Positions 26,582-43,732 of a stretch of 43,978 bases of DNA are shown here, one piece after another. Location: the NCBI GenBank assembly GCA_029210695.1, contig JARGFH010000030.1, forward strand, positions 1-43,978. The letters run 5' to 3'. The notes beneath the pieces were generated by a model, which was not told the origin of the DNA, did no database searches, and was given only the letters and a program-made list of their open reading frames with translations. The position numbers were made by a program, and so were the translations under genes. The stretch comes from Acidimicrobiia bacterium (GTDB lineage: Bacteria > Actinomycetota > Acidimicrobiia > Spongiisociales > JAHEDJ01). How positions within the stretch are numbered: position 1 is the first letter of the stretch; each line of letters begins with the position of its first letter.

Positions 26582-26678
26582 GGGCCAGGAACCCCCGGCT
26601 GAGCTGGGTAAGACCAACCACCAAAGAGCAGCACCGGGGCGCAACTCCAAGCCGCGCCAAGGACGTGGAAGGTGACGA

Positions 26679-26873
26679 ATGGGTGTTGAGGGTTCGCGGT
26701 ACTCGGATCAAGTGGGAACGTTCGCCGAAGAGCTGGTCGTCGCGCTCTCCCCCATCGGTGACGTGTCGCGACATGCTCGCATGCCGTACCACACGCTCCC
26801 GGCCGACATCCTCGATGACGAGGAGATGCTCATCGAATGGGCTCGAGAGTCGGCCGACATCGCGTTGAGGTGA
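26679..26873 (+). CDS. Small hypothetical protein
   Basis: A 64-residue acidic reading frame begins MGVEGSRYSDQVGTFAEELV and ends EMLIEWARESADIALR, with GGAAGGTG just upstream of the ATG. The predicted helix-rich C-terminus and the ribosome-binding site argue for a real gene, but I recognise no family. It could be non-coding between the YCII and DUF1295 genes. Confidence 0.4.
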   Translation: MGVEGSRYSDQVGTFAEELVVALSPIGDVSRHARMPYHTLPADILDDEEMLIEWARESADIALR

Positions 26874-26931
26874 TCCGTATTCGGCCACACCCAGTTCGGA
26901 GGGACTCGGTCCCGCCGTTTCCGCGGCGCCG

Positions 26932-26960
26932 TTGCGGTATCAACTCCACACCCCTAGGGT
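26932..26960 (+). promoter_or_regulatory. Promoter for a leaderless DUF1295 transcript
   Basis: TTGCGG (26932-26937), a 17-base spacer and TAGGGT (26955-26960) are followed eight bases later by the ATG at 26968. The transcript would therefore start at the initiation codon. A longer reading frame starting at TTG 26932 would begin inside this -35 box and is unlikely. Confidence 0.55.
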
Positions 26961-26967
26961 CGTCCGG

Positions 26968-27843
26968 ATGACCGACGAAAACCGAAGATCTCTCATCGGC
27001 ATCGCGGCCGCCCTCGTGATCGGGGTACTGGTCGGGTTGGCCGGCAGCGCCGGCAGCCGCAGCGTCGGTCCGATAGCCGTGTTTGCCGTGTGCGGACTAG
27101 TCGCATATGCGATCAACTGGGTGGTCTTCGTCCCCTCCAACCGGGCGAAAACCGAGCACTACTTCGACCTGACCGGTAGCGTCACCTATCTGACCGTCAC
27201 GGCCGTTGCTCTGGCGTTCAGCGGCGACCTCGACGCCCGGGCGATCATCGTTGGCGTCATGGTTTGGATATGGGCTGCACGACTGGGTTCGTTCCTGTTC
27301 CGCCGGGTTCGGCGGGACGGGCGAGACGGCCGGTTCGACCGGATCAAGACCGACCCGCTGCGGTTCTTCATGACCTGGACGTTGCAGGGCCTGTGGGTAC
27401 TGCTCACCTTGGCTGCGGCCCTGGCGATCATCACCGGCACCGAACGACAGACGATCGGATGGCTTGCCGTCGTCGGCATCGCCGTCTGGGTCGCCGGCTT
27501 CGCGGTCGAGTCCGTGGCCGATTGGCAGAAGTCAGCCTTCAAACGGAATCCGGCCAACGCCGGCCGCTTCATCACTTCCGGATTGTGGGCATGGTCGCGT
27601 CATCCGAATTACTTCGGAGAGATCGTGCTCTGGACGGGCATAGCAATCATGGCCCTCCCGGTCCTTTCCGGTTGGCGGTGGATCACCTTGATCTCGCCGT
27701 TATTCGTTGTGCTTCTGCTGACCCGTGTGAGCGGGATCCCGATGCTCGAGACCCGGGCCGAGAAGCGCTGGGGCGACGAAGCGGAGTACCAGGAGTACAC
27801 AAGCCGGACACCCGTCTTGATTCCCCGGCCACCGCGTAACTAG
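26968..27843 (+). CDS. DUF1295 membrane protein (steroid 5-alpha-reductase-like)
   Basis: This 291-residue protein has about seven membrane helices and the C-terminal DUF1295 signature. FITSGLWAWSRHPNYFGEIVLWTGIAI contains the conserved RHPNY...E motif that binds NADPH in isoprenylcysteine methyltransferase/5-alpha-reductase-type enzymes, and RWGDEAEYQEYTSRTPVLIP follows near the end. The probable role is an NADPH-dependent reductase or methyltransferase-like enzyme acting on a lipid; the substrate is unknown. The ATG at 26968 fits a promoter eight bases upstream. Confidence 0.9.
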   Translation: MTDENRRSLIGIAAALVIGVLVGLAGSAGSRSVGPIAVFAVCGLVAYAINWVVFVPSNRAKTEHYFDLTGSVTYLTVTAVALAFSGDLDARAIIVGVMVWIWAARLGSFLFRRVRRDGRDGRFDRIKTDPLRFFMTWTLQGLWVLLTLAAALAIITGTERQTIGWLAVVGIAVWVAGFAVESVADWQKSAFKRNPANAGRFITSGLWAWSRHPNYFGEIVLWTGIAIMALPVLSGWRWITLISPLFVVLLLTRVSGIPMLETRAEKRWGDEAEYQEYTSRTPVLIPRPPRN

Positions 27844-27954
27844 CAGCATCGATCCGCGGGGCCTCGGACGCCGCAGGGCTCAAGACTGCGCCCGCAGGAT
27901 CCATCTTGCGTGCCGGTGGACCCGGGTCTTCGACCATCAGCGAGCCCATTGGTA

Positions 27955-29205
27955 TCAGTGCTCGGGCCGGCCGGCGACGATGGCGGTCACATGATCTACT
28001 GCTCTTTCGACACCATTCTCCGCTCGGAGCCTTGCTGCCAGCTCCGCCGATCTGGAGCGAATGTTCTCTTGGTCCGTTGTCAGGATCGCCCGGGACAAGG
28101 ACTCGATGGTGAGCCGGCGTCTAGGCAGGCTAACTCCTACTCCGAGAGCCTCTACCCGCTCTCCCCAGAAGAACTGGTCGGCGAACGACGGCACCACGAC
28201 TGATGGGGTCCCCGACTGAAGAGCCGTGCCGGTGGTGCCTGCGCCGCCGTGGTGCACAACTGCCGCCATCTGGGGAAACAACCAATCGTGCGGAACATCG
28301 TCGACCACGAGCACGTCGTCACTCGAATCCGCCACCTTGAGTCCTCCCCATCCGGTCAATAGGACCGCCCGCTTGCCCGTCCGCCTGACCGCGGCCAGCA
28401 CCACGCCGGTGAGTACTTCCGGCTCCCGCTCGGGGCGGCTGCCGAATCCGACATATACGGGCGCCGGACCATCGGCCAGAAACCGGGTGAGGGCTTCCGA
28501 CGGCCGCCAAGTCCTGGGACGTTCACGGACCCAGTAGCCGGTCACCTTGATTTGGTCCGGCCAGTCCGAAGGTGGCGTCACCACCGCCGGCGAGAATCCG
28601 TAGAGAACCGGCATCGATTTGTAGATGGACCGGTAGAGACCCGACCGCGGAAGCGGACCCAAGCCTAATCCCGCTCGCCAGCGATTGACCGACCGCCGGA
28701 CCGGCTGCCAGGTGATCTGCTCCACGGCGACGTGGGACCACAGATTGAGAAGCCCGGACCCACTCCGCTTCATGAACAGGCTGGGAAACTGGCGGGTGCG
28801 GGTCATGGGCTGCAGGTAGGCGCCGATCGCCGGGATGCGGGCTGCCTCGGCGAGGTGGTAGGCCGGGAAGGCGAGAACGGAAAACAAAACCGCGTCGGTG
28901 CCTGCCATGGCGGCCTCGCAATCCTTCAGGTATTGATGAAAGATTGGTCCTGAAAGATCCAAGAGACGCTGCATGATTCGAACGGGGTTCCGTCCGCTGG
29001 CGAGCCACCTCTTGCCCGGCTCCGCTTCCATCATGAGGCGGGGATCTCCACCGGCAGGGCTGAACTCCATACCCGCCTCCCGGATCTCCGGCTCGTAACG
29101 CTCGTGGGTAGACAGCCGCACGGTGTTTCCCACCGCAACGAGTCCATGGCCGAGTGCAATGTACGGCTCGATGTCACCCCTCGACCCGACCGTGAACAGA
29201 GTCAT
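27955..29205 (-). CDS. Glycosyltransferase family 1 (UDP-glycosyltransferase/MGT-like)
   Basis: This protein of about 416 residues opens MTLFTVGSRGDIEPYIALGHGL, as in sterol- and macrolide-type GT1 enzymes. The C-domain has PVYVGFGSRPEREPE and the donor-binding VLVVDDVPHDWLFPQMAAVVHHGGAGTTGTALQSGTPSVVVPSFADQFFW, with the HHGGAGTT motif. Such enzymes glycosylate small lipophilic acceptors such as sterols, hopanoids, polyketides or carotenoids, rather than building polysaccharides. The start could be ATG 29205, GTG 29211 or ATG 29229. I chose 29205, where family similarity begins and which leaves the palindrome at 29211-29226 outside the gene. Confidence 0.9.
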   Translation of the reverse strand: MTLFTVGSRGDIEPYIALGHGLVAVGNTVRLSTHERYEPEIREAGMEFSPAGGDPRLMMEAEPGKRWLASGRNPVRIMQRLLDLSGPIFHQYLKDCEAAMAGTDAVLFSVLAFPAYHLAEAARIPAIGAYLQPMTRTRQFPSLFMKRSGSGLLNLWSHVAVEQITWQPVRRSVNRWRAGLGLGPLPRSGLYRSIYKSMPVLYGFSPAVVTPPSDWPDQIKVTGYWVRERPRTWRPSEALTRFLADGPAPVYVGFGSRPEREPEVLTGVVLAAVRRTGKRAVLLTGWGGLKVADSSDDVLVVDDVPHDWLFPQMAAVVHHGGAGTTGTALQSGTPSVVVPSFADQFFWGERVEALGVGVSLPRRRLTIESLSRAILTTDQENIRSRSAELAARLRAENGVERAVDHVTAIVAGRPEH

Positions 29206-29210
29206 GTGCA

Positions 29211-29226
29211 CGAGACCATGGTCTCG
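29211..29226. promoter_or_regulatory. 16-bp palindrome at the start of the GT1 gene
   Basis: CGAGACCATGGTCTCG is a perfect inverted repeat immediately upstream of the likely GT1 start (29205). It could be an operator or a translation-blocking hairpin. It would be coding if the upstream ATG at 29229 is used. Confidence 0.35.
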
Positions 29227-29253
29227 CATGTGGAGGCCAAGAACAAGCGATGG

Positions 29254-29281
29254 TTGCTCCCCGCACCCGTGGACCTATAGG
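29254..29281 (+). promoter_or_regulatory. Putative promoter of the dienelactone-hydrolase-like gene
   Basis: TTGCTC (29254-29259), a 16-base spacer and TATAGG (29276-29281) fit a housekeeping promoter. A 7-bp hairpin (GGATCGG 29280-29286, CCGATCC 29293-29299) lies at the start point, and AAGGGAG at 29317-29323 is the ribosome-binding site. Confidence 0.45.
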
Positions 29282-29329
29282 ATCGGATCGCCCCGATCCG
29301 ACATGCCTTCACGACTAAGGGAGTCAGCT

Positions 29330-29938
29330 ATGACCCGAGTTGTCCTCTTCCATCACGCGCAGGGGCTGACGCCCGGTGTGGAGGCGTTTGCCGATAATCT
29401 TCGGGCTGCCGGTCACGAAGTGCACACCCCGGACCTGTTCGACGGCGAAACCTTCGACTCCATTCAGGCCGGCATGGCCCATGTCGGAACGATTGGGTTC
29501 GGGGAGATCATGCAACGCGGCGCTCGTGCAGCCGATGCCCTCGGCGGCCACCTCGTGTACGCGGGGTTCTCGCTGGGTGTGGTGCCGGCCCAGATGCTTG
29601 CCCAGACCCGTCGCGGGGCGCTGGGCGCGGTGCTTTGTTATTCGTGCGTGCCCGTCTCGGAGTTCGGTGAGTCGTGGCCCGCCGACGTTCCGGTGCAGAT
29701 CCACGGGATGGACGCCGACCCCTTCTTCGTAGACGAGGGTGACATCGACGCCGCCCGTGCCATCGTCGAGTCCTCCCCCCGCGCCGAGTTGTTCCTGTAT
29801 CCGGGTGATCAGCACTACTTCGCCGATAACTCGTTGCCCTCCTACGACGCGGAAGCAACCGAGCTGTTATTGCGGCGGGTCATCAGCTTCCTGGCGGGAC
29901 TGTCCGACGCACCGGCGGACGCCCCGGCCAAACCGTGA
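29330..29938 (+). CDS. Dienelactone hydrolase family protein
   Basis: In this 202-residue alpha/beta-hydrolase, HLVYAGFSLGVVPAQ holds the nucleophile elbow (G-F-S-L-G, Ser instead of the Cys of classical dienelactone hydrolases). QIHGMDADPFF carries the Asp region and LYPGDQHYFAD the catalytic His. The substrate is unknown; relatives hydrolyse esters and lactones. The ATG at 29330 follows AAGGGAG. A promoter lies about 50 bases upstream. Confidence 0.88.
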   Translation: MTRVVLFHHAQGLTPGVEAFADNLRAAGHEVHTPDLFDGETFDSIQAGMAHVGTIGFGEIMQRGARAADALGGHLVYAGFSLGVVPAQMLAQTRRGALGAVLCYSCVPVSEFGESWPADVPVQIHGMDADPFFVDEGDIDAARAIVESSPRAELFLYPGDQHYFADNSLPSYDAEATELLLRRVISFLAGLSDAPADAPAKP

Positions 29939-30066
29939 CATCTATCCAGGTCACATGCCGGCCGTTTGACGCCATTGTGAACCCGAGATGGGTGTGGACC
30001 GAGCTTGCACCGGACACGAACCGGACACCCGGCATCATGACCGGCGGCCATTTGCCCGGCCCTCGG

Positions 30067-30411
30067 CTACTCCTCCAGCATGGCAAGGCGGATCGCAACC
30101 AGGCGGCGAACGAGAACCTCATCCGGTGCCCGGTCCACCGGGAACCGCAAGGTGCCTTTGGACCAGTCGTAGCCCTCGAGTAGCTCCGGCTCGACGCGTG
30201 GGATGACAGAGCCGGAGTGGGGGAAGTAGCTGCAGTGGCGTTTGGCATGGGCGTAGCCGACCACAGCCTTTCCGCCGACTTTGAAGGCAGGGACACCGTA
30301 CGACATGCCTTCTTCTGCCTCCGGAAGGATCGACGTCAACATCGCACGAAGGCGGTTCAGCGTGCTTCGCTGAGGTTCGGGTGCTGCATCGAGGTACTCG
30401 TCCACGGTCAT
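30067..30411 (-). CDS. DUF1801 protein (YdhG-like)
   Basis: This 114-residue protein begins MTVDEYLDAAPEPQRSTLNRLR, followed by EEGMSYGVPAFKVGGKAVVGYAHAKRHCSYFPHSG and FPVDRAPDEVLVRRLVAIR, the standard layout of the DUF1801 family that includes the YdhG/Fra-like fold. Some relatives bind iron or act as chaperones. Function here is unknown. It converges with the downstream hydrolase gene and diverges from the cyclase-like gene. Confidence 0.88.
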   Translation of the reverse strand: MTVDEYLDAAPEPQRSTLNRLRAMLTSILPEAEEGMSYGVPAFKVGGKAVVGYAHAKRHCSYFPHSGSVIPRVEPELLEGYDWSKGTLRFPVDRAPDEVLVRRLVAIRLAMLEE

Positions 30412-30516
30412 GGCGAGAATCTACATCGTTTGCTGAACCGACTACCAGGGAATCGGCCCCACGCACGCCGGCAGGTCGCCGAGTGGTCCCGTGCCGGAGG
30501 TGGCATCATTGCGGTC

Positions 30517-31479
30517 ATGGACAATCCGGACACCCTCGCGGACGGCGTAATTGATTGGCTGCTCCACGGGGATTCAGCCATCCGCTGGCAGGTCATGCGT
30601 GATCTTCAGGACGCGTCTCCCGAAGATGTAGCGGCCGAGCAGGCGCGGGTCGAGCACGACGGCTGGGGTTCCCGCCTTCTCGCGCTCGAGGGTCCCGATG
30701 GACTCTGGGACGGGGGTGCCTGCTTCCCGAAGTCCTACACCGGCGGTGAACCGGGGCAACCCTGGACGGCCACGATGCACACGCTGCAGACGCTACAGCT
30801 CCTCGGGCTCGACCCGGCCTCGGGGTCCGCACGCCGGGCGATGGCGCTGGTCGCGGAGAACGGGCACTGGGAGCACGCCGGGCAGAGATATTTCGACGGT
30901 GAGGTCGAGCCGTGCATCAACGGCCGGACGATCGAGACGGGGGCCCATTTCGGGGTAGATGTCGCACCGATCGTCGAGCGGATCCTCGGCGAGCGGCTGG
31001 ACGATGGTGGCTGGAACTGCGAGGTCGAGAACGGTTCGGTGCGCTCCTCTTTCGACACGACGATCAACGTGCTCGACGGGCTCCTCGAGTTCGAGCGCGC
31101 GACCGGTGAATCTCCCGAGGTGAGCGCCGCCCGGCGCGGCGGTGAGGAGTACCTGCTCGAGCGCGGCCTTTTCCGCCGCAAGAGCAACGGCGAGGTCGCC
31201 GACCCGGCGTATCTCGAGTTCGCGTTCCCCTACTACTGGCACTACGACGTGCTGCGTGCACTCGACTATTTCCGTTGGTCGGGCACGGACCCGGATCCCC
31301 GGATGGCCGAGGCTGTGGAGGTCGTGCGATCGAAGCGGCAGCCCGACGGCCGGTGGCTGCTCGACCGCATCCACCCGGGCCGCGTCCACTTCGACCTCGA
31401 GGGTGGAGTTGGGACGCCGAGCCGCTGGATCACCCTGCGTGCCCTCCGGGTGCTCGACTGGTGGGACGGCTCCGCGTGA
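30517..31479 (+). CDS. Prenyltransferase/squalene-cyclase-like (alpha/alpha toroid) protein
   Basis: This 320-residue protein has repeating helical pairs with QW-like turns: GPDGLWDGGACF, DDGGWNCEVENGSVRSSFDTTINVLDGL and QPDGRWLLDRIHPGRVHFDLEGGVGTPSRWITLRALRVL. It resembles half of a terpene cyclase toroid, but full squalene-hopene cyclases are about 630 residues and carry a DXDD motif that is not evident here. A catalytic cyclase role is therefore doubtful, and a binding or degraded-toroid role is possible. It is followed by a DUF1697 gene on the same strand. Confidence 0.75.
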   Translation: MDNPDTLADGVIDWLLHGDSAIRWQVMRDLQDASPEDVAAEQARVEHDGWGSRLLALEGPDGLWDGGACFPKSYTGGEPGQPWTATMHTLQTLQLLGLDPASGSARRAMALVAENGHWEHAGQRYFDGEVEPCINGRTIETGAHFGVDVAPIVERILGERLDDGGWNCEVENGSVRSSFDTTINVLDGLLEFERATGESPEVSAARRGGEEYLLERGLFRRKSNGEVADPAYLEFAFPYYWHYDVLRALDYFRWSGTDPDPRMAEAVEVVRSKRQPDGRWLLDRIHPGRVHFDLEGGVGTPSRWITLRALRVLDWWDGSA

Positions 31480-31522
31480 CGGGCGAGGCGAGTTCGCAGT
31501 CGGCACACGGGCGACCTGCACG

Positions 31523-32346: not shown

Positions 32347-32682
32347 ATGCCGCTCACGATATCAATCGCCGCCTACTTCGTTGTCGCCGCCACCCTATGG
32401 GTGGTCGGGCGTCATATCGGACGCGCTTCGAGCGCAGTTGCCGCCGTTCCCTACATAGGGCAGCTCGCGCTGGTTGCTGCGCATTACCTGGGTGATCGTT
32501 CGGGTTTTGACGAGCGCTTCGACTGGATTGCGTCTCTTGGCGTGAGCTTCGGTCTCCGATCCAATGACCTAACCATGGTCCTCACTGCGATTGTCGCCGG
32601 GGTCTGGCTACCGGTTGGCCCCGTGCGATCCTCCACCCCGTTGCGGCTTGGAGGTTCCTCTTGTACTTCACCGGTCGGCTGA
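32347..32682 (+). pseudogene. N-terminal remnant of an MrpA/NuoL-like antiporter subunit
   Basis: About 85 residues (MPLTISIAAYFVVAATLWVVGRH to NDLTMVLTAIVAGV) resemble the first membrane helices of the MrpA/NuoL-type subunit. FDERFDWIASLGVSFGLRSNDLTMVL corresponds to the family's WxPSLGxxxxLRxDGLSLxF region. After about 32600 the frame becomes unrelated sequence, and the MrpE frame takes over in another register. The full MrpA protein has some 700-900 residues, so more than 85% is missing. This looks like one side of a deletion inside an mrp operon. Confidence 0.6.
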
Positions 32683-33098
32683 TCGTTTCTACATGGGACG
32701 TCATCTGATCGCTGCGGTTGGGACGAGATGAAATCATGCCGGCGATCATCGAGGTGCCGCTGCGGGCGAGGACGCGAAACCAGCTGACCCTGCTGATGAA
32801 CTCGATCTCATTCACCCCGGGTACCGTGGCCCTGGAGCTCCACGACAATCACCTGATCGTGCACGTGCTCAACACAGACGACCCGGGCGAGGTGGCGGCA
32901 GAGATCCGGACGATGGAGTCGAAGATCATGGCGGTGTTGTCACGGGCCGAATTTGAAGACGCGACCCAAGAGAACGTCTGGCGGCGCTGGCGCCTGGTCG
33001 ACCGACGCTATCTCATCCCGGCCTGGGCTCACCCGCCGCCCGAGATCCATCCGCGCACGTCGGATACTCCCGCCCGGCCGCAGGAGCCGCCGAAGTAG
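32625..33098 (+). pseudogene. mrpE: Remnant of mrpE (Na+/H+ antiporter subunit E) with an in-frame stop
   Basis: WRFLLYFTGRLIVSTWDVI resembles the transmembrane part of MrpE. It stops at TGA 32706-32708, and the same frame resumes with PAIIEVPLRARTRN and FTPGTVALELHDNHLIVHVLNTDDP, the known soluble C-terminal half. The N-terminal helices are missing. Reading continues about 35 residues past the expected end into the antisense of the next gene, as if the original stop was lost. mrpF and mrpG do not follow. An independent short protein from TTG 32718 or ATG 32736 is possible. Confidence 0.65.
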
Positions 33099-33634
33099 TA
33101 GTGGAATTCGAGGCCCTCGAAGGCGCCCTCACCGACGTAGCGGGCCTCGCCGGAGGGTATGGAGTCATCCGCCGCCTGGACATAACCACGCCAAGTACCT
33201 TCGGCATTGGTGATGACGGCCTCCTCCGCCACCCATACGTCGCCAACCTCCCCTCCGTCAAAGAAACGGAGACGATCGTGTCGTTCGGTCCCGCTGACCC
33301 GCGGGTCGGACATGTCGAGTTCGCACACAACGAGGAAACCGGTTCCTCCCTCCGGATTGACCCCCTCGTCCGAGAATTCGCATGTCGCCGTACCCGAGAC
33401 CACCACTGCGTCGGAAGGTATCGCATGGAAGGGGGCTGATTCCGTTGTCAACGACTCCGATCCGCCTGTCGTTGCCACCGTCGTCGAGGACACCGGAACA
33501 GCTGTCGTTGCCACCGTCGTCGAGGGCACCGGGGCGACTGTCGTGGTCGTTGACTCGGATGAGGACGACCCGCAGGCGGCCACCAGGCACGCGGCGAACG
33601 CGGCACCGATGAATCTTGTCGTCGTCAACCTCAT
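33029..33634 (-). CDS. Secreted lipoprotein of unknown function
   Basis: This 201-residue protein has a lipobox (LVAACG, Cys at residue 21) and a Thr/Ser/Val-rich spacer (residues ~27-64). A beta-rich domain of unknown family follows, with TATCEFSDEGVNPEGG, DRLRFFDGGEV and FEGLEFHYYFGG. The spacer is encoded by two 36-base tandem repeats (33468-33503 and 33504-33539). It lies 90 bases after the LysM-WD40 gene with a good ribosome-binding site (GGGGAAGG), so it may be the last member of the Tad operon or separately expressed. Confidence 0.75.
   Translation of the reverse strand: MRLTTTRFIGAAFAACLVAACGSSSSESTTTTVAPVPSTTVATTAVPVSSTTVATTGGSESLTTESAPFHAIPSDAVVVSGTATCEFSDEGVNPEGGTGFLVVCELDMSDPRVSGTERHDRLRFFDGGEVGDVWVAEEAVITNAEGTWRGYVQAADDSIPSGEARYVGEGAFEGLEFHYYFGGSCGRAGVSDVRGWISGGG
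33468..33539. repeat. Two 36-base tandem repeats inside the lipoprotein gene
   Basis: Both units begin GTCGTTGCCACCGTCGTCGA and differ at a few positions. Read on the minus strand they encode the repeated STTVATT-type linker. The linker length is likely to vary between strains. Confidence 0.8.
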
Positions 33635-33724: not shown

Positions 33725-36700
33725 TCACCGCACCGTCCAAATCTTGACGGTCCCGTCGTCGCTGGCGGTGGCGATGCGGGTACCGTCGGGGCTCCACGCC
33801 ACGTCCGTTACCTCATCGGTGTGGCCGGTGAGCGTGGCCAGTTCGTCGCCCGAGCCCGCATCCCAGATCCTGGCGGTCCCGTCGCTGCCGGCGGTGGCGA
33901 TCCGGTTGCCCTCGGGGCTCCACGCCACCACCCACACTTTTCCGGTGTGGCCGATGAGGGTGACCAACCCGTCGCCGGTGTTGGCGTCCCAGACCTTGGC
34001 GATCTTCCCATCGCGGCCGGCGGTGGCGATCCGGGTGCCGTCGGGACTCCACGCCAAGTCCGTCACCTTTAGGAGGCTCGGGATCGTGAGCAGTTCGTCG
34101 CCGGTGGTGGCGTCCCAGACCCTGACGCTCGTCCTGCAGGTGGTGGCGAGGCGGGTGCCGTCGGGGCTCCACGCCGCCTCCCACACCCATGAAGTGGGTC
34201 CAGGGCAGAGGGACAGTGTGAACTGTTCCTCACCGGTGGTGGCGTCGAGCACCGCTGCCCACCCCCAGGCACCGCCGACGACGATGCGGGTGCCGTCGGG
34301 GCTGTAGGCCACGGTCCCATCGCTAATCCAGCCGAGGAGTTCGTCGCCGGTGGCGGCGTCGTAGACCGCTGATCCCGGCCCCACGATCGCCAGGCGGGTG
34401 CCGTCGGGGCTGTAGTCCATTGCCACCCTCACGGTTTCGAAGTTCCCCAGGCTAAAGGAGAGCAGTTCGTCGCCGGTTGGGTAGCCGACGAGCGCGGCTA
34501 CTCCCCTACCCGACTGGGCCATAACGAGGAGACGGTCGGCTCCATCGGGTGCCTCTTGGGCGGGGTCGAGGACGACGATTGGGTCCCAGGTGCCGTCGTT
34601 GATCGGCGACAGCCGACCATCGAGCGGTGTGGTCGCGGTCACCTCCACTGCGGCTGTCTTGGCCTCGAGGATCGGAAGGACATCGGTCAGGTTGTCGACA
34701 ACGGTGATCCGTTCGAGCTGTTCGAGCCCGTCTCCGAATCCGACGCACATGATGTGGATGCCGTCGGCGAGAGGCGTGGTGGCAAGCTCGGTGGCGATCG
34801 TGGCGCACGTGTCGAGGAGATCATCAGGTTCGCCGGTGACGCGGGTTGCCCCTGCGAACTCGAGGTCGAGGAGGAGGTGGACGTCGCCGGTGTGCCCGAC
34901 CGTGACGAGTGTCGGGTACGGGGCGGGGACGGCGGTTGCCTTGCGTCGGAGCAGCTCGGCGTCCGTGGTGGCCGAGAGTGTCCAGCTGCGGCCGCCGTCG
35001 TCGATGGCCCATCCGGGTGGCGGGTTGGTGTGCGGTGTCCAAAGGAGGAGCCGGAGGGTGTGTGGGCTGAGGTGGACACCGACGACATGCGGCGGCTGCT
35101 GGTGGGCAGCATTGACGTCGTGGACCATGGCTCGCAGGGCGATGTCGACGAACTCCGTGGCGGTCGGGGCAGCCGATGCTCGTATTGTCGCCTCCGTCTT
35201 TTGTGCCTCGGCGGGTGGCGGTGTGGGTGCGGTCCCGGTTCGGCGGCGTCGCAGCTGACCGGCTCGGAGCCGGCGCAGCAGGCCGACGACACCGGCACCG
35301 AGGATCCCGAGACCGGCCAGCCGGACGGCGATCGGGAACAGATCCCCGAACGGCCCGGCGTCGGCGGTGTCGTCAGCCGCCTCGATATCGGCCGGTTCGA
35401 TGTCGTCGGCCTGGATCGTGCGCGGCGACGTGGTGTCTTCCATGGGTGGCGCGGTCGGTGTGCTCGTTGCTTGGGCAGGCACAATGGTCTGCGGTGTTGC
35501 GTCCGGGTGCGTGGTGTCCGGTGTCGAGGTGGATGGTGGTGGCACATCCACGCTCGGTTCGGCCCAGCCGGTCTCGGGCTCGACTGCCGGGGCTGTGTTG
35601 CCCGGGATCGCGGGTAGTTCGAAGACCTGTCCCGGGTCGATGAGGTCGGGGTCGTGCGGGGGTGCGAGCCGGTCCAGGTTCATGTCGACAAGTTGTCGCC
35701 AGTAGTCGGCGACTTCTGTGGTCGTCGGGGCCTCGTCGAGCGCGTCGGTGAGGGTCGTTTCTGCGATGCTCCAGAAGGTGTCGCCCTGTGCGACGGTGAT
35801 CTTCGCAGGACCTTCGGCTGGAGGTGGCGAGGCGGTTTCGGCTCGCAGGTCGGAGGGGACGGGTGGGAGTTCGAAGACCTGTCCCGGGTAGATGAGGTCG
35901 GGCTCGTGCGGGGGTGCGAGCCGGTCCAGGTTCATGTCGACAAGTTGTCGCCAGTAGTCGGCGATCTCCTGGTTGGACGGTAGTCGTCCCCAGGCGTCGG
36001 CCAGTGTGGTTTGGGCGATGTTCCAAAAGGCATCCCCGGGCTCGACCGCAACCTCGGTCGCTGCCTGCTCGGTTGCGGGTTGCTCGGTCGCCGCCGGCTC
36101 GTCGGTGGTGTTGGCGTCGGCGGGGAGGAGGAGCTGCCAGCCGGGCGTGAGGGTGTCGGTGGTCTCGGTGAAGCGGTACCCGTCGTTCATGGTGCGGCCG
36201 GCGTTGAGGGTCTGGATCTCGTTCCAGCGTCGCCCGTTGGCGAGGGTGTCCTCGGCGATCTTCCAGAGGGTGTCGTGGCGTTGCACCCGGTAGGTCGGGT
36301 GCGATGTTGGCGCCTCGGATCGGGTCGGTTGTTGGTCGTCGGCTCGCTGCCATGGCCCCTCATCGATGTCCAGCACCGGCTGAGCGGACACGTCGACGAG
36401 GGATGCGGCCAGCGGGGTTGCCGCTGCTGGCAGTGCCCGCATCGGTCCGAGAGTGGCCACGGCCAGGGTGATGGCGGCAACGAGTTGAGCGACGGCTGGT
36501 TGCAGTCCGGGCAGAACGGGGAGCCGTCGTGCGGTGCGGCCGCGGAGCGCAGCAGCCATCTCGACGGCGAGGACGATGGCGAGCTGTGCCCAGATAACCC
36601 ATACGATGACTGCCAGCGTGTTGATGATCAGGTTCGGGTCGATGCCGCCGCGGAGGGCGAGTTGGATCTGGTCGAGGGTGGGGATGCTGGTGGGTAGGGG

Positions 36701-36805
36701 CCAGCCGACGTAGGCGATCAGCCCGGCCGGGACGGCGATGGTGAAGAGTGCGAGGGCGATGAGGGCGACGAGCCCGTTGATGGCGTGTTTGGCGTGTCGC
36801 ATCAT
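33725..36805 (-). CDS. Tad-locus membrane protein: three LysM domains and a C-terminal WD40-like propeller
   Basis: This protein has 1026 residues. Three membrane helices lie near 10-33, 60-84 and 103-125. Three LysM-type domains follow at ~172-228, 252-314 and 335-398 (peptidoglycan binding), then a Pro/Thr-rich spacer and a helix at ~493-511. An unrecognised domain spans ~545-760. Six WD-like blades occupy ~770-1026, each with a SPDGTRxA and W/V-D-xxTGDEL pattern. LysM proteins in actinobacterial Tad loci usually end in a transcription-activator-type domain, so a propeller here looks like a domain swap. The predicted topology places LysM outside and the propeller inside. The ATG at 36805 overlaps the upstream stop. 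Confidence 0.85.
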   Translation of the reverse strand: MMRHAKHAINGLVALIALALFTIAVPAGLIAYVGWPLPTSIPTLDQIQLALRGGIDPNLIINTLAVIVWVIWAQLAIVLAVEMAAALRGRTARRLPVLPGLQPAVAQLVAAITLAVATLGPMRALPAAATPLAASLVDVSAQPVLDIDEGPWQRADDQQPTRSEAPTSHPTYRVQRHDTLWKIAEDTLANGRRWNEIQTLNAGRTMNDGYRFTETTDTLTPGWQLLLPADANTTDEPAATEQPATEQAATEVAVEPGDAFWNIAQTTLADAWGRLPSNQEIADYWRQLVDMNLDRLAPPHEPDLIYPGQVFELPPVPSDLRAETASPPPAEGPAKITVAQGDTFWSIAETTLTDALDEAPTTTEVADYWRQLVDMNLDRLAPPHDPDLIDPGQVFELPAIPGNTAPAVEPETGWAEPSVDVPPPSTSTPDTTHPDATPQTIVPAQATSTPTAPPMEDTTSPRTIQADDIEPADIEAADDTADAGPFGDLFPIAVRLAGLGILGAGVVGLLRRLRAGQLRRRRTGTAPTPPPAEAQKTEATIRASAAPTATEFVDIALRAMVHDVNAAHQQPPHVVGVHLSPHTLRLLLWTPHTNPPPGWAIDDGGRSWTLSATTDAELLRRKATAVPAPYPTLVTVGHTGDVHLLLDLEFAGATRVTGEPDDLLDTCATIATELATTPLADGIHIMCVGFGDGLEQLERITVVDNLTDVLPILEAKTAAVEVTATTPLDGRLSPINDGTWDPIVVLDPAQEAPDGADRLLVMAQSGRGVAALVGYPTGDELLSFSLGNFETVRVAMDYSPDGTRLAIVGPGSAVYDAATGDELLGWISDGTVAYSPDGTRIVVGGAWGWAAVLDATTGEEQFTLSLCPGPTSWVWEAAWSPDGTRLATTCRTSVRVWDATTGDELLTIPSLLKVTDLAWSPDGTRIATAGRDGKIAKVWDANTGDGLVTLIGHTGKVWVVAWSPEGNRIATAGSDGTARIWDAGSGDELATLTGHTDEVTDVAWSPDGTRIATASDDGTVKIWTVR
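33775..34420. repeat. Tandem WD40-type repeats at DNA level
   Basis: The plus-strand motif CGGGTGCCGTCGGGGCT and its variants recur about every 105-140 bases (near 33778, 33903, 34029, 34149, 34287 and 34394). They encode the SPDGTR segment of successive blades. The periodicity and divergence are those of protein repeats, not a CRISPR array. Confidence 0.8.
35617..35964. repeat. 96-base near-perfect direct repeats encoding LysM halves
   Basis: Bases 35617-35712 and 35869-35964 are almost identical, with only about two differences seen by eye. They encode the shared ADYWRQLVDMNLDRLAPPH and PGQVFELP segments of LysM domains two and three. The surrounding halves have diverged, so this suggests a recent internal duplication or gene conversion. 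Confidence 0.8.
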
Positions 36806-37206
36806 GGCTCCTCGGTGATGGCTGCGGCGGTCTCGGTTGCGGTGACAGTGATGGGACCGGTGGGAAGCAGTACCGGGTCGACGGTGAGTTCGACCGTGAC
36901 GGTGATGGTGTCGTCGGTGACGACGATTTCGCTGGCCGTGTGCCCGAGGTCTGTCAGGTAGTCGCGGGCTTCCTGTTCTGCGGCGGCGGGGAGGAGTCGG
37001 ACGATGCCGTCGGTGCGGAGAGTGTCGAGGTCGACGGCCTGGGCTCCGGCCCGGGCGGCGTTGTCGGCGAGGTTGCTGGCCTCCCGTAGTGCGTTGACCT
37101 TGCGGCCCCCATCGACGACAAGTCCCGCTGCGGCGAGGAGGGCGAGAGCGAGCACCGCCAAGAAGGTGGAGACGGCTCCCCTTTCACTACGGAGCCGAGC
37201 GTTCAC
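36802..37206 (-). CDS. TadG/Rv3654c-like pseudopilin
   Basis: In this 134-residue protein, RGAVSTFLAVLALALLAAAGLVVDGG is a class III prepilin-like N-terminus followed by one helix. The rest is a short extracellular alpha/beta part (NLADNAARAGAQAVD, then beta strands). It matches the helicase/secretion-neighbourhood TadE-like group. Phe replaces the usual Glu+5 (AVSTF), so processing or packing may differ. The GTG start overlaps the TadE stop (GTGA), and its own stop overlaps the LysM-WD40 gene. Confidence 0.8.
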   Translation of the reverse strand: MNARLRSERGAVSTFLAVLALALLAAAGLVVDGGRKVNALREASNLADNAARAGAQAVDLDTLRTDGIVRLLPAAAEQEARDYLTDLGHTASEIVVTDDTITVTVELTVDPVLLPTGPITVTATETAAAITEEP

Positions 37207-37631
37207 GGTGTCGCCCCCTCCGCGTTGGCGCGATAGGCGTCGATGATTTCGACACCCGTCGACGAGAAGGTGCGAGTGCCGGGGACGGCGAGCATGGCCA
37301 GATCGGAGAAGGCGGCGTCGCAGCTGACGGTCACGGCTACCCGGCCCCCCGGCGTGAAGTCGGAGGTGTCGATGTTCACCTCGAGCTGCCGGCAGCTCAC
37401 CGTGCCCGCGGCGATATTCGCCGAGGCGCTATCGATGGCGGCTTGTTCCGCGGCTTGTGAGCTAGCGGCGAGTGAGGCGGCGCGGGCGGCTTCTTGGGCG
37501 GCGTTGGCCACGTCACCCTCGGCTTGCGTAACCCTGCCGGCGAACACCACGAGCAGCAAGAACCCGATCAGCAGTGGGGTGAGCACCGCCAGTTCGGTCG
37601 AAACCGCCCCGTCTTCAGACCTCCGTATCAT
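37203..37631 (-). CDS. tadE: TadE-family pseudopilin
   Basis: In this 142-residue protein, the N-terminal EDGAVSTELAVLTPLLIGFLLLVVFAG has the Gly/Ala cleavage site and Glu+5 of prepilins. A coiled helix follows (DVANAAQEAARAAS, typical of TadE), then a beta domain with two cysteines (SCRQL, VSCDAAF). TadE is a minor pilin-like component thought to prime Flp pilus assembly. It overlaps both neighbours by 4 bp. Confidence 0.85.
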   Translation of the reverse strand: MIRRSEDGAVSTELAVLTPLLIGFLLLVVFAGRVTQAEGDVANAAQEAARAASLAASSQAAEQAAIDSASANIAAGTVSCRQLEVNIDTSDFTPGGRVAVTVSCDAAFSDLAMLAVPGTRTFSSTGVEIIDAYRANAEGATP

Positions 37632-38026
37632 CGGTCAGGCTCCTGAATGAAGCGCTCCACTCCGCCGGTGGCGTGGGCGGTCACCCGCCAGTCGAATCCG
37701 GGCAGGATGCGAGGTGCCCGTCCGGTCACGTCGACGGTGACCGTGTCGGCAGTCCGGCTGACGGACACCTCCGGGTCGGTGAGGTTGCCGGCGGCGTCCA
37801 GGAACCACTCTGCTGCCCGCACGCCGTCGTCTTCGGTTGCCGTGACTACTTGGGCGGCGTCGAGCGCTTCGCGGGCGGCAGCTTCGGCGACTTGGCGGGC
37901 ATGCCACCACAGAGCGACCTGGAACGGCACCAGGACGAGCGCGATGATCACCGGCATGACCACGGCCAGCTCGGTCGAGGTCAGCCCGCGTTCCGTCCTG
38001 TGCGGTCCCGTCACCGTCATGCCCAT
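37628..38026 (-). CDS. TadE-family pseudopilin (second copy)
   Basis: This 132-residue protein has RGLTSTELAVVMPVIIALVLVPFQVALWWHARQVAEAAAREALDAAQ, again a prepilin-like cleavage site with Glu+5, then a helix and a beta domain ending VTAHATGGVERF. It probably works with the other TadE/TadG proteins in pilus biogenesis. ATG 38026 or 38020 are both possible. The stop overlaps the next start (ATGA). Confidence 0.85.
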   Translation of the reverse strand: MGMTVTGPHRTERGLTSTELAVVMPVIIALVLVPFQVALWWHARQVAEAAAREALDAAQVVTATEDDGVRAAEWFLDAAGNLTDPEVSVSRTADTVTVDVTGRAPRILPGFDWRVTAHATGGVERFIQEPDR

Positions 38027-38034
38027 GCTCCCGT

Positions 38035-38253
38035 TCAGGGTGTGGGTGGGGTGACGTTGTCGGGGATCGCCTCGGCGTTTGACCGCATCTTGGCGATCAG
38101 GATCACACCTGCGGCGACGGCGATGGCGACCAGCACGCCGGTGAGTACGGCGGCCTCGGTCGACATCGCTCCTTTCTCGTCCTCGATGTCGATCCCGAGA
38201 CGGGTCAGCCCTACCTCGATGAGGAGGCGGGCGTAGTCGATGTAGGCGGTCAT
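38035..38253 (-). CDS. flp: Flp-type pilin
   Basis: In this 72-residue protein the N-terminal ~29 residues are a leader-like segment (MTAYIDYARLLIEVGLTRLG...). KGAMSTEAAVLTGVLVAIAVAAGVILIAKM is the prepilin site with Glu+5 and the hydrophobic stalk, and a short tail of 16 residues follows. It is probably the major Flp pilin subunit. The leader is longer than in classical Flp and resembles the actinobacterial Rv3656c-type. GGGAG precedes the ATG. Confidence 0.8.
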   Translation of the reverse strand: MTAYIDYARLLIEVGLTRLGIDIEDEKGAMSTEAAVLTGVLVAIAVAAGVILIAKMRSNAEAIPDNVTPPTP

Positions 38254-38317
38254 GGATGGTGCTCCCTTCGCTGTGTAACGTGGTTCCTCCGCTGGTTGGG
38301 GGTGTCATGGTTGGGTG

Positions 38318-39226
38318 TCATGGGACCGTTCCGGGGGTGGAGATGGCTTGAACGACGCCGAAACCGATGAACAGGATCATGCCGACCACGAGGGTGACGA
38401 CTGGTAGCAGCATCTTCTCGGTGGCGGATTCGGCTTGGGCTTCGATGGCTGCGGTTTGGGCGGCCCGCATCGAGTCGGCTTTGGCGGCGAGCGAGGCGCG
38501 GATTCGGGCTCCTTGGTCCCCGGCCAGTTGCGCAGCAGCCGCCAATTCCCGGAGTTCGTCGACGCCGAGTTCGACACCGAGGTCGTCGAAGATCTCCCAC
38601 GGAGTGCGGTTGGTGATGCGGGCCTTGCGTAGGGAGGCTCGGATCTCGGCGAACGCCCAGCCGTCGCCGAGGTCGGCTGATGCCTGCAGGGCGGTCTCGA
38701 GGCCTCCGCCGCCGGCGAGGATGACGGTGACCAGGTCGAGGTACGCGGAGAGCGAGTGGCGGAAGTCCCGACGGCGTCGCTCGATCCGCTCGGCCAAACC
38801 CAGGTCCGGGTAGAGGAACCCGGCTACCCCGAGCCCGATCGCCGCTACCGCGGCCACAGCGGGCGATATGGACACTCCGGCTGCCGCCACTGCGAGCGTG
38901 AAGAGGACGGGGATGGCGAAGCCGGCGAGACCGGCGAGGAGCTTCTCGTAGGCGTGGGCTTCGACTGTCTTCCCAAGTGCGCGGAGCCGGGTGGACAGAC
39001 GCCCCATGTCGACCAGTCCAGTGGCTTCGAGCAGCCGTACCCCTGCCTGTCCGATCCGCTCAGCGAACGCACCGGTGGTCACCGGCTGCGTGGTTGCGGG
39101 TCGGGGTTTCTCAAGGCCGGCGAGGGCTTCGGCGAGTGGGATCGGTCGGGGCCGTATCGCCCGGACCCCGAGATACACACCGGCCCCGACCGTCGCTCCG
39201 GCCGTCATGGCTGCCAGGACACTCAT
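38318..39226 (-). CDS. tadC: TadC inner-membrane platform protein
   Basis: This 302-residue protein has three to four membrane helices and a central cytoplasmic T2SS-F domain (RRRRDFRHSLSAYLDLVTVILAGGGGLETAL through ELRELAAAAQLAGDQGARIRASL). With TadB it forms the membrane platform that couples the TadA ATPase to pilin movement. The ATG at 39226 overlaps the TadB stop. A 64-base gap to the pilin gene holds its ribosome-binding site. Confidence 0.92.
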   Translation of the reverse strand: MSVLAAMTAGATVGAGVYLGVRAIRPRPIPLAEALAGLEKPRPATTQPVTTGAFAERIGQAGVRLLEATGLVDMGRLSTRLRALGKTVEAHAYEKLLAGLAGFAIPVLFTLAVAAAGVSISPAVAAVAAIGLGVAGFLYPDLGLAERIERRRRDFRHSLSAYLDLVTVILAGGGGLETALQASADLGDGWAFAEIRASLRKARITNRTPWEIFDDLGVELGVDELRELAAAAQLAGDQGARIRASLAAKADSMRAAQTAAIEAQAESATEKMLLPVVTLVVGMILFIGFGVVQAISTPGTVP

Positions 39227-40086
39227 CGGATCGGCTCCCGAGTGATGTGGCGGAGGGTGAAGCGTTCCGGTGCTTCGAGGCGACTGTAGCGGTGGAGCAT
39301 GACACCGGCCCCGAAGAACACGGCCGTCACCACTACGAGCCATCCCTGCCCGGCGACGGTGTTGTATGGCTCCAACAGGTGCCGGGCGAACACGTCGAGG
39401 AACGCGACGGTGGCGGCGGTGATCCCGACTGCGATGCGGGCCGAGGTGCGGATCCGGGCCCGGCCGATCTCGATCCGGGAGCGCATGCGCACGTCACCGC
39501 GGATCGCGTCCGCCAACCTGGCCAGCAGCGGGCCCAGGTCGCGGGCTTCGAGACGGGCGGCCGCGGCCAACGCCGCCACCACCATGTCCGCCGACGAATG
39601 ATCCAGTTCCCTCGCGAGAGTGTCGAGGGCGGCGTCGAGGGGTTGATGCCGCAGGCGCCGGGCGAAGGCTTCGAGCTGGGGCCGGATGGCGGTGGGGGCG
39701 ACCGCCGCGGTCTGGATCAGCGACGACTCCAACCCGGCGGCGCCGGCCATCGTGTCGCGGAGCATGTCCGCCCAGGTGGCGATCGCGTCGGCGGTTGCCG
39801 CCTCGCGGGCACGGTGGGCCTCGCCGCCGAGGGCCGCCGGCCCGACCAGCACACCTGCGAACACGGCGACCCCAGCGACCGGCCAACGGGTGACCAAACC
39901 CACCACGAGTCCGGCGACCGTGGCGATGGATAGCCAGGCGACGGCGCGTTCGGCGGGCACCGCCGTCGGCACCAAGCGGCCGGCCGGCGGGACGACCCGG
40001 ATGCCGCGGATGGCGGTCACGCCCAGCCACACTCCGAAGCCGATCACGGCACCGAGCAGGGAAGCGATCAAGATCAGCACGGTCAC
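39223..40086 (-). CDS. tadB: TadB inner-membrane platform protein
   Basis: This protein of about 287 residues has N-terminal and C-terminal membrane helices and a T2SS-F domain (ADAIATWADMLRDTMAGAAGLESSLIQTA, DHSSADMVVAALAAAARLEARDLGPLL). It pairs with TadC. The GTG at 40086 gives the same GTGA overlap as elsewhere in the operon; the GTG one codon earlier is equally readable. Confidence 0.92.
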   Translation of the reverse strand: MTVLILIASLLGAVIGFGVWLGVTAIRGIRVVPPAGRLVPTAVPAERAVAWLSIATVAGLVVGLVTRWPVAGVAVFAGVLVGPAALGGEAHRAREAATADAIATWADMLRDTMAGAAGLESSLIQTAAVAPTAIRPQLEAFARRLRHQPLDAALDTLARELDHSSADMVVAALAAAARLEARDLGPLLARLADAIRGDVRMRSRIEIGRARIRTSARIAVGITAATVAFLDVFARHLLEPYNTVAGQGWLVVVTAVFFGAGVMLHRYSRLEAPERFTLRHITREPIR

Positions 40087-41378
40087 CACCGTCCCGAAGC
40101 GTCGGCGAGGTGTGATGAATCAAACCCGGCGGCAACGAGGCGGTCGAGGGTGTCGTTGCGGATGGTTGGGCCCGGCGACGGAGCCGCCCACCCTTGTGGG
40201 CCGGGTCGGTATACCTCGTTGGTTGAGATCTGCCGTACCTCCGCCTCCAGCACCTCCCGCACCGACGTGACCCGCCGGACACTGTCCACCCACCCGAGGT
40301 GCACGATGAGGTCGACGGCGTTGGCGATCCACTTGTTCGACGTTTCCTCATCGAGGCCCGCCTCGGCCGTGTACATGCCGAGCCGGACGATCGCTCCTTT
40401 CGACGAGTCGGCGTGAATCGACGACATTGACCCGTCGTTGCCCTGGGACATGGCCCTGAGCATGTCGACTACCTCGACACCGCGTATTTCACCGACGATG
40501 ACGCGGTCGGGGTTCTGCCGCAGTGTGGCTCGCACACAGTCCGCCAGGGTGGCTTCGCCGTGTCCTTCGATGTTGGCGCCCCGGCGTTCCCAACAGACCT
40601 GATCCGGGTGGAGATCCGAGAACCGGTCGAGACCGATCTCGAGGTTGTCCTCCACCGTCACTACCCGCTCGTCGGCTGGGATCTCGTTGAGCAGGCAGCG
40701 CAGCATCGTCGTCTTGCCGGTGTTGGTGCCGCCGGCGACGATCAGGTTCAGCTTGGCCCGCACCGCAGCTCCCAGGAACTCGGCCAGCTCGGCGTCGACG
40801 ACGCCGAGCTCGATCAGGTGTTTCAGCCGGTAGATGGAGAAGTCGTGGCGGCGGATCGTGACCGCCGGGCGGCCCGTCAGCCCCATCACCGCATGGAGAC
40901 GTTCTCCACCCGGGAGCTGGAGGTGTAGCTCCCACGACACCTGGTCCCACCGTTTCTCTGATCGGCCGATCCGCCGCGCCGCCGTCGACAGGATCTCGAT
41001 CAGCTCCCGATCCGAGTCCGCGGCCGCTTCTCCTCGGACTTTGGTGCCGTCCCGGTACACGAGCCACACGTTGTCGCAGCCGTTGACGTGGATGTTGGCA
41101 ATGTCCGGGTCGTCGATGTACGGCTGGAGCCGCCCCAACCCGTGGACCCGATCAAAGACGGCCGAGGCGACTTCAGCCTCTGCAGTCTCGTCGAGGAGCG
41201 GCTCGCCGTTGCGGTAGGCCTGCTCGGCAAGCCGTGACAGTTCGGCTGCGATCAGCGACCGGGTCAGGGCTTGCTCGTCCTCAATGCTCAGTGGATCGTC
41301 GACAGCGCGGAGACGCTCAGCCAGGTTCTCCGCCACCGCCCGATGCAGCCGCCCGACCAAATCGGATTGACCGTTCAC
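40083..41378 (-). CDS. tadA: TadA/CpaF secretion ATPase
   Basis: In this 431-residue GspE-type ATPase, Walker A GGTNTGKT is at 216-223, the Asp box is around VTVEDNLEIGLDR, Walker B NPDRVIVGEIRG is near 289-300 and the His box is SSIHADS at 319-325. It powers pilus extension (and often retraction) at the membrane. The GTG at 41378 overlaps the upstream stop (GTGA), and family homology begins shortly after it. A longer reading has only unrelated residues. Confidence 0.95.
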   Translation of the reverse strand: MNGQSDLVGRLHRAVAENLAERLRAVDDPLSIEDEQALTRSLIAAELSRLAEQAYRNGEPLLDETAEAEVASAVFDRVHGLGRLQPYIDDPDIANIHVNGCDNVWLVYRDGTKVRGEAAADSDRELIEILSTAARRIGRSEKRWDQVSWELHLQLPGGERLHAVMGLTGRPAVTIRRHDFSIYRLKHLIELGVVDAELAEFLGAAVRAKLNLIVAGGTNTGKTTMLRCLLNEIPADERVVTVEDNLEIGLDRFSDLHPDQVCWERRGANIEGHGEATLADCVRATLRQNPDRVIVGEIRGVEVVDMLRAMSQGNDGSMSSIHADSSKGAIVRLGMYTAEAGLDEETSNKWIANAVDLIVHLGWVDSVRRVTSVREVLEAEVRQISTNEVYRPGPQGWAAPSPGPTIRNDTLDRLVAAGFDSSHLADASGRW

Positions 41379-42163
41379 GATCCCACCTCCCGTGCCATCG
41401 CCGACGGCGCAACGCTGCCTGAATCGCCGGTCGCCACTGCGGAATCGCTGTGGGGTAGCGGCGCCAGGGCAGCGGCCAGGGTCGCCGCCGATCTGATGAG
41501 CTGGGATCGGCGCAGGCTCCCGATCGCACCGGGGGTACCGGCAAGCACGGCAGCCGTCTTCGGGTCCCACGCGATGACCCCGACCACGGGACAGTGCAGC
41601 GCAGCTGCCACCTCGCTGGGGCCGTGCGGCTGATCGCCGACCAGCAGGAGCGACGTCTCAGAATCGGCGGTCTTCAAGGCTTCGCAGCGGATCCCGGCCG
41701 GTCGGAGCTGATCAACCGTCGGGCGGGCAACAACCATCACCGGGCCCGCTCTGAGCAAGGGCATGGAAGGCGCGGATCGTGTCGAGATCCGTCCCCCGTC
41801 AACGATGACATCAAGGTCCGATTGAACCGTGGCCCAGCCGACCAGTTCGTCGGCGGTATCTCTGAGCACCACCTGCGATTCGTCCGGAGATGGAGGTCCC
41901 ACCAGCACGGGGAGCCCGCCGGGAAGGGTCTGGGTGTGTTCCCGAACCAACTCGTCGCTGAGGCCGCCACGCCGTGCCGCCGCCGCCAGCGAGACCAGCC
42001 CAGGCGTATCGGCCATGCCGAACCGTACGGCGATCACACCACCAGAGATGTCTGCCTCGACCACGATGCAGCGACGATGCTGTGGCCAGGTGGCGGCCAA
42101 GGCCAACGCCGTCGTGGTCACGCCTGGTGACCCGTGAGCCGAGACGAGGCTGAGCACGCTCAC
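41375..42163 (-). CDS. tadZ: TadZ/CpaE-like ParA-type protein with degenerate P-loop
   Basis: This 262-residue MinD/ParA-fold protein begins MSVLSLVSAHGSPGVTTTALALAATWP, followed by VVEADISGGVIAVRFGM and VIVDGGRIS. The P-loop GSPGVTTT lacks both the signature Lys and the catalytic Lys of KGGxGKT, so ATP hydrolysis is doubtful. TadZ proteins position the Tad machine at the pole and often have weak ATPase activity. It overlaps both neighbours by 4 bp. Confidence 0.82.
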   Translation of the reverse strand: MSVLSLVSAHGSPGVTTTALALAATWPQHRRCIVVEADISGGVIAVRFGMADTPGLVSLAAAARRGGLSDELVREHTQTLPGGLPVLVGPPSPDESQVVLRDTADELVGWATVQSDLDVIVDGGRISTRSAPSMPLLRAGPVMVVARPTVDQLRPAGIRCEALKTADSETSLLLVGDQPHGPSEVAAALHCPVVGVIAWDPKTAAVLAGTPGAIGSLRRSQLIRSAATLAAALAPLPHSDSAVATGDSGSVAPSAMAREVGS

Positions 42164-42837
42164 CGGTCGCCTCCGGCGACGAGCACCAGCCGGACCCGAT
42201 CGGCCGCTGCGGCTGTTACCACCTCGGCCGAAGCCTCGGCCGGTACTTGGAGCGATACGAACCGGTCGCCTTGCGTCCCTAGCTCGGCGATGTCGAACAC
42301 CACCGCCGACACGATCAGCTGTCCGGTATCAGTCGCAGGGTCGGTGGCCACCACGTCGACGTGATCTCCCGGCGCCAGACGCAGGGTCGGGTACTCGCCC
42401 GGTGCCAACGCCACGCCCACCACCGCCTCACCCGTGGCCAGTTCGTTGCCGGAGACGAAATCGGAGGACGTGAGGATCGTGCCCGCTTCGAGGTCGACGG
42501 CTGCTGTCGAACCCGCCACCCGCGTCAGCTCGTCGGAACCGAGCGATGCGATCGGATCATCCGACGCCACATACACCACCATTAGATCGTCGGCCGCCAC
42601 CACCTCGCCTCGCTCGACCGGTTGTGCCAGCGCCAGCACCGGCTCACGGGCAGCGGCGCGTGAGAACACCACCACCGCCACCAAGGCACCAATGGCGACC
42701 AGGAACACCGCGATCAGAAGCTGAGGAACCTGCACCCTCGGTCGAGCCGGCTCCACCCGCAGCTGGCTCCGACCCTGCTGACCGTTCCCTGCAGGATCTG
42801 GACGTGTGGCGGGTTGGCTACTCGTCATCCGGTTCAC
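42160..42837 (-). CDS. cpaB: SAF-domain CpaB/RcpC-like pilus protein
   Basis: This 225-residue protein has a Pro/Arg-rich cytoplasmic start, one helix (QLLIAVFLVAIGALVAVVVFS) and an SAF domain (PVERGEVVAADDLMVVYVAS, LEAGTILTSSDFVS). LAPGDHVDVVATDPATD is typical of CpaB. In Gram-negatives it stabilises the outer-membrane channel; here, without a secretin, it may align the pilus with the wall. The GTG at 42837 lies one base after the upstream stop. Confidence 0.85.
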   Translation of the reverse strand: MNRMTSSQPATRPDPAGNGQQGRSQLRVEPARPRVQVPQLLIAVFLVAIGALVAVVVFSRAAAREPVLALAQPVERGEVVAADDLMVVYVASDDPIASLGSDELTRVAGSTAAVDLEAGTILTSSDFVSGNELATGEAVVGVALAPGEYPTLRLAPGDHVDVVATDPATDTGQLIVSAVVFDIAELGTQGDRFVSLQVPAEASAEVVTAAAADRVRLVLVAGGDR

Positions 42838-42838: not shown

Positions 42839-43732
42839 TCATCCTCCCGTCTCCACCGCCTGGATCTCGGCCACGGCCACCCCGAAACCGGAGGCCAGGT
42901 CGACGGTGCCGAACACTCCCTGGTAGGCGTCGTTGATCCACCACTCGAACTCCCAGCTGACCGTCACCGAGGCATCGAAACGACCGTCCGGCTCCCCGTA
43001 CGAGCTGTGCTCGTAGGTGTGAGCGCAGTCCGTGGCGTCCTCAGCGGCGCCCGGCGTCCAGGCGACACCCGGCCCGAAGCACGTAGTCTCACCGCCGTCA
43101 CCCATCGCCCAAGTGGCGCGGGTCGGGGTGGCCAGCACGGTCACTGTGACCACGCCACGGGTCTCGGATGCCTCCAGCGGCGACCAATACGCCGGATCGA
43201 GCCACAGCCACGTCGGAACTTGAACGAAAGTCTCGGCGGCCAGCGGAGGACTGGTCTCCGGGGCCGGAGGAGGCGGCTCCAGGCGAGCTGCTGCGATGTC
43301 CCGAATCACCTCCGGCGGGACGCCCGGCGTCACCTCGACGATGATCTGGATCTCGATGTCCCCCCGCCCGTCGTGCCAGCAGATGACGTCGTACCACACG
43401 TACTCGCCGGTCGGGTCGAGACCGAACAACTCGATCTCGTCGGGTTCGACCGGACCGACCTCGTAGAAGCCGACCTCGTCGCCCTCCTGGAAAGGCCCGG
43501 CCGCGTCGCAGTAGTAGTCCCACAGCTCGTGCATCGTGTAGGTCTCGGGCTCACCGGGAACAATCCCGTGGCATTCGCCCACGACGTCGCCACCCCGGTC
43601 CTTGATGTCCCCACTCCCTGAGCAGTGGTCTGCGAGCGCGGGCGGAGCAGGTACCAGCGTCGCCACCAGCGCTATCAGCGCCAGCAACATCAGACCGTGG
43701 GCAAGCCCCGATCGGTTGGTGCGAACTCGCAT
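42839..43732 (-). CDS. Secreted Tad-operon protein of unknown function
   Basis: This 297-residue protein has a signal peptide (TNRSGLAHGLMLLALIALVATLVPAPPALA). Two unrecognised regions follow: a Cys-containing part (YYCDAAGPFQEGDEVGFYEVG), then a beta-rich PKD-like part with ATWAMGDGGETTCFGPG and DCAHTYEHSSYG. Similar proteins head Tad operons in other actinobacteria, which suggests a role in pilus assembly outside the membrane. A second start at 43690 would overlap the upstream stop as TGATG. I chose 43732 for its fuller signal peptide. Confidence 0.75.
   Translation of the reverse strand: MRVRTNRSGLAHGLMLLALIALVATLVPAPPALADHCSGSGDIKDRGGDVVGECHGIVPGEPETYTMHELWDYYCDAAGPFQEGDEVGFYEVGPVEPDEIELFGLDPTGEYVWYDVICWHDGRGDIEIQIIVEVTPGVPPEVIRDIAAARLEPPPPAPETSPPLAAETFVQVPTWLWLDPAYWSPLEASETRGVVTVTVLATPTRATWAMGDGGETTCFGPGVAWTPGAAEDATDCAHTYEHSSYGEPDGRFDASVTVSWEFEWWINDAYQGVFGTVDLASGFGVAVAEIQAVETGG

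Follow-up and report, generated by a model that had tools for sequence, protein, structure and literature searches.

In one of the five LysM gene copies of this genome (on contigs C30, C6, C22, C76/C105, and C14), the last gene of a Tad pilus operon, the C-terminal tail usual for the family is replaced by six WD40 repeats. The window, by which we mean the whole stretch of DNA analyzed (43,978 nucleotides), comprises all of contig C30; the genome is 3.91 Mb in size and assembled in 181 contigs. The Tad operon that it carries is itself ordinary; what is unusual is the well-delimited tail replacement in one LysM gene copy. By its sequence, the product is a derivative of the LysM-BTAD family of Tad operons rather than a canonical member of it. 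LysM domains bind peptidoglycan and WD40 propellers bind proteins; tails of the BTAD/winged-helix type are known from SARP-type regulators. We consider the protein most likely to be a wall-to-cytosol scaffold that would have lost a putative DNA-binding output, and we would give an even chance to the account as a whole, in which the BTAD tail was swapped for WD40 repeats in a duplicated copy to yield a putative envelope-spanning scaffold. The features of the fusion protein and of its operon are as follows, in window coordinates.

33725..36805, minus strand: LysM-TM-middle domain-WD40 fusion protein, 1026 aa, open ORF
33728..34468, minus strand: six WD40 repeats, aa 780-1026 (Pfam and by eye)
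34468..34469, minus strand: breakpoint; identity with paralogue C14 extends through the GAC codon of aa 779, and WD40 begins at aa 780
34469..34573, minus strand: host segment aa 745-779 (strands 758-763 and 769-774), placed tentatively by AlphaFold in a seventh blade
34469..35173, minus strand: conserved middle domain, predicted cytosolic, aa 545-779, without Pfam match, common to all BTAD-tailed relatives
35276..35332, minus strand: predicted fourth transmembrane helix, aa 492-510, then an Arg-rich flank predicted inside (hydropathy and charge)
35615..36298, minus strand: three LysM units, about aa 170-227, 251-317, and 334-397 (Pfam LysM)
36440..36772, minus strand: three predicted N-terminal transmembrane helices, aa 12-30, 63-81, and 104-122 (hydropathy)
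36802..37206, minus strand: TadG-like (Pfam Tad)
37203..37631, minus strand: TadE-like
37628..38308, minus strand: TadE-like, start codon uncertain
38318..39343, minus strand: TadC-like (T2SSF)
39223..40089, minus strand: TadB-like (T2SSF, below the curated cut-off)
40083..41570, minus strand: TadA-like ATPase (T2SSE)
41375..42163, minus strand: 262-aa protein, conserved at this place in the operon, no Pfam match
42160..42837, minus strand: SAF-domain CpaB-like protein
42839..43732, minus strand: 297-aa protein without Pfam match, at the operon head in other loci too

The fusion gene closes a TadA/TadB/TadC/TadE/TadE/TadG row, and its ATG start and the TadG-like stop codon overlap in ATGA, which bears out the Tad linkage proposed in an earlier, sequence-only reading of this DNA. 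Of the components of a Tad/Flp locus, the TadA ATPase, TadB/TadC (the TadB-like match being sub-cut-off), and the TadE/TadG pseudopilins are present. The same gene order, with the LysM gene ending the pilus set, recurs in other loci of the same genome, in two relatives, and on Streptomyces and Microbacterium plasmids.

Three LysM domains and a helix near residues 493-511 had been proposed for the protein, and both are recovered: LysM units 1 and 3 score 23.4 and 24.2 bits, above the Pfam cut-off of 20.9, with unit 2 sub-threshold at 16.7 bits (E 0.007), and hydropathy puts a fourth transmembrane helix at residues 492-510. A near-identical stretch common to LysM units 2 and 3 (ADYWRQLVDMNLDRLAPPH; window 35615-36055) suggests a recent internal duplication or conversion. 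The flank that follows the fourth helix has seven K/R and no D/E, and the LysM region is acidic (17 K/R versus 63 D/E). From this charge distribution, the N-terminus is predicted to lie inside, the LysM region outside, and the flank after residue 510 inside; the earlier placement of the LysM units on the outer and the propeller on the inner side accordingly stands as a prediction from hydropathy and the positive-inside rule. The WD40 match over residues 780-1026 is unambiguous (Pfam E 2.8e-43, 144.9 bits versus a cut-off of 27), and four repeats pass singly. Counted by eye as TGD-to-TGD units, there are six repeats of 38-44 residues, with TGD or TGE directly before each start.

The origin of this architecture is best seen from the paralogues. 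All four of them (C14, C76, C6, and C22) share residues 1-780 or 183-780 with the window protein at 55-82% identity; the alignments end at residue 778-794, after which come about 340 residues of another kind, and in each case the protein ends in a winged-helix/BTAD tail. Pfam BTAD matches eight of the nine tails from this genome and its relatives; in the PDB, the tail profile matches AfsR best. The window copy retains the other family features (N-terminal TM helices, LysM units, a further TM helix, and the middle domain) and lacks the C-terminal winged helix and BTAD, having WD40 from residue 780 instead. Its nearest sister is the C14 copy, which it matches up to codon 779, the last 24 nt being identical; the two DNAs have CTCGTCGGCTACCCAACCGGCGAC in common and then diverge. 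Nine nucleotides at the join, ACCGGCGAC, also terminate several of the WD repeats. Because four paralogues in the same genome keep their BTAD tails and the breakpoint is sharp, the suggestion that a transcription-activator-type tail was replaced by a propeller is the right reading. Relatives of the middle domain were not found in four congeners.

An artificial join, produced when an assembly or library chimera fused a LysM-BTAD gene to a WD40 gene, was one of the two threats named for this reading. It draws some force from the absence of the join from any second genome and from the state of the sister contig: C14 opens partway through its copy of the gene, the front part of which is missing from the assembly, and close by are stretches of 54 and 56 nt that match the window exactly, so that the area around the C14 start is tangled. 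Against these stand the mere 9 nt that the parents share at the join, too short for a k-mer misjoin, and the absence from the assembly of the two pieces that a misjoin should leave behind, a BTAD tail at the end of a contig and the rest of a WD40 gene. In addition, window 19451-31480 is syntenic with contig C69 of the congener G001 at about 88-91%, marking the left side as native backbone, and the Tad side is part of the paralogue set of this genome and resembles its other Tad loci. We hold the artificial join to be improbable. A contig derived from two organisms was considered as well; the synteny with G001 argues against it, and the tetranucleotide profile did not discriminate.

The synteny ends at window 31480; at the corresponding position, G001 lacks the stretch between 31.5 and 44 kb, the Tad operon included. 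An Mnh/Mrp antiporter operon may have left remnants within this stretch, at window 32347-33098, where a short membrane ORF adjoins a piece of MnhE that covers its C-terminal half (Pfam positions 74-145 of 145). A lipoprotein-like gene (window 33029-33634) follows the fusion gene on the same strand, at a distance of about 90 nt. A deletion that fused an adjacent WD40 gene is not supported: the relatives of this downstream gene (50-59% identical, in G079 and G077) have no adjoining WD40 genes, and the homologous region of G001 is free of them.

Relatives of the fusion protein were sought in genomes of the order (138), the class (395), and the phylum (396). None of the approximately 52 readable C-termini, a number that includes the genome's own paralogues and was checked by scripted motif count rather than by a per-sequence Pfam scan, carries a run of WD motifs, and the LysM-WD40 fusion is therefore a singleton. 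The domain-architecture search called for earlier thus gave no second case in the order, class, and phylum genomes, and no such junction was found in viral contigs. No donor WD40 gene was found in the genome itself; the genome contigs searched gave at best 42% identity (Planctomycetia), and the class at best 63-64%, over individual repeats (G319), and we take neither match as the donor. Two loci of G319, L178 and L175, have WD40 arrays of nearly identical repeats, with 10-14 SPDG units.

As for the fold, the six-blade propeller envisaged earlier agrees with the six sequence repeats, but AlphaFold closes a ring of seven blades by using host residues. The model of residues 745-1026 (pTM 0.85) has a pLDDT of about 80-97 from about residue 795 on and superposes along its entire length on seven-bladed WD40 structures, as on the 5yzv WD40 domain (Z 37.7, 270 residues, 1.6 A, 33% identity). 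When residues 545-1026 are modeled, the propeller is again confident and the middle domain, the relatives of which are absent from the alignment, falls under a pLDDT of 50. The seventh blade would be built from the host strands at 758-763 and 769-774, joined by the first WD strand, with a pLDDT of about 48-63. WD repeats by themselves are expected to close, which biases the ring model, and since the alignment has no host relatives and the fragment lacks the rest of the host domain, the hybrid blade is a suggestion only. That the swap works because host strands at residues 758-774 complete the WD40 ring is a doubtful idea; if true, one recombination at a repeat boundary would have turned a wall-anchored transcription-factor-like protein into a WD40 scaffold, itself wall-anchored and serving a pilus machine.

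The sequence of events that we propose would start from a duplicated copy of an actinobacterial Tad-operon protein with LysM-TM-middle-BTAD architecture. This copy would have lost its winged-helix/BTAD tail, and an illegitimate recombination at the microhomology-sized join described above may have brought in the six WD40 repeats, gained in frame and in repeat phase. Proteins of this family in general may anchor the Tad machine to the wall and carry a cytosolic output; in the literature searched, we found no description of the function of LysM-BTAD proteins in Tad loci. The window product would probably be an envelope-spanning scaffold, with LysM units that hold peptidoglycan beside the Tad machine and a cytosolic propeller that, instead of the putative DNA-binding output, presents a platform for binding proteins. 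It is somewhat unlikely, in our judgment, that the fusion is genuine and recent yet functionally empty, the output domain having been lost, the WD40 tail being a bystander, and four intact paralogues making the copy dispensable. Its singleton status, the redundancy with four BTAD-tailed copies, the adjoining antiporter operon remnants that suggest a rearranged spot, and the low pLDDT of the host-derived seventh blade would all fit such a fusion. The shared part, however, shows no sign of decay: over 581 shared sites, private changes number 19 in the window copy and 17 in C14, with five each in the middle domain, and dN/dS between the two is 0.34 (0.225 in the middle domain). As far as substitutions can tell, this excludes a marked decay and leaves the LysM and middle domains evolving no faster than those of the BTAD-tailed sister, although a very recent fusion would look alike. 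The WD repeats, moreover, are intact and model well, and both reading frame and repeat phase are preserved. Quite improbable is the wall-to-cytosol sensor proposed in the earlier reading, in which LysM or pilus state would alter the partner binding of the propeller; the predicted topology and the location of the family at the end of Tad operons suit it, but no sensing module is recognized in the protein, and none of the known Tad components found here is related to its WD40 part.

Comparison with known proteins sets the proposed scaffold apart in its tail. The LysM proteins of actinobacterial Tad operons on a Streptomyces plasmid (WP_327378727.1) and a Microbacterium plasmid (WP_054687618.1) have the same operon position and, like the window copy, TM helices, LysM units, and the middle domain, at 31-36% identity; these two were compared without their tails, and the family relatives in whole genomes end in winged-helix/BTAD where the window copy ends in WD40. 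The closest modeled fold to the propeller, the WD40 domain of PkwA from Thermomonospora curvata (5yzv), belongs to a protein annotated as a kinase, whereas in the window the propeller, with its own six WD repeats, belongs to a LysM membrane protein. A WD40 array in the same genus is found in a BTAD-nSTAND1-WD40 regulator of the congener G002 (L174, 8604-13646), which, unlike the window protein, is a soluble-type STAND protein with an N-terminal BTAD and without a LysM or TM part; its repeats are 44-51% identical to those of the window, a comparison that does not make it the donor.

Actinobacterial Tad pili are widely accompanied by the LysM-middle-BTAD protein, and the four usual-tailed copies and one propeller copy of this genome amount to a natural domain-swap experiment, which would make it possible to ask if the BTAD tail has an action on DNA or only a role in protein binding. 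The fusion also shows how repeat boundaries permit in-frame domain exchange. The genome has four close TadA genes and two distant ones. At one of its Tad loci, C105 (3' end of L221) stops after tadA and C76 (start of L016) opens at tadB, with complementary AGAGCCCTCCT ends, and it looks as if an insertion element between tadA and tadB broke the assembly there.
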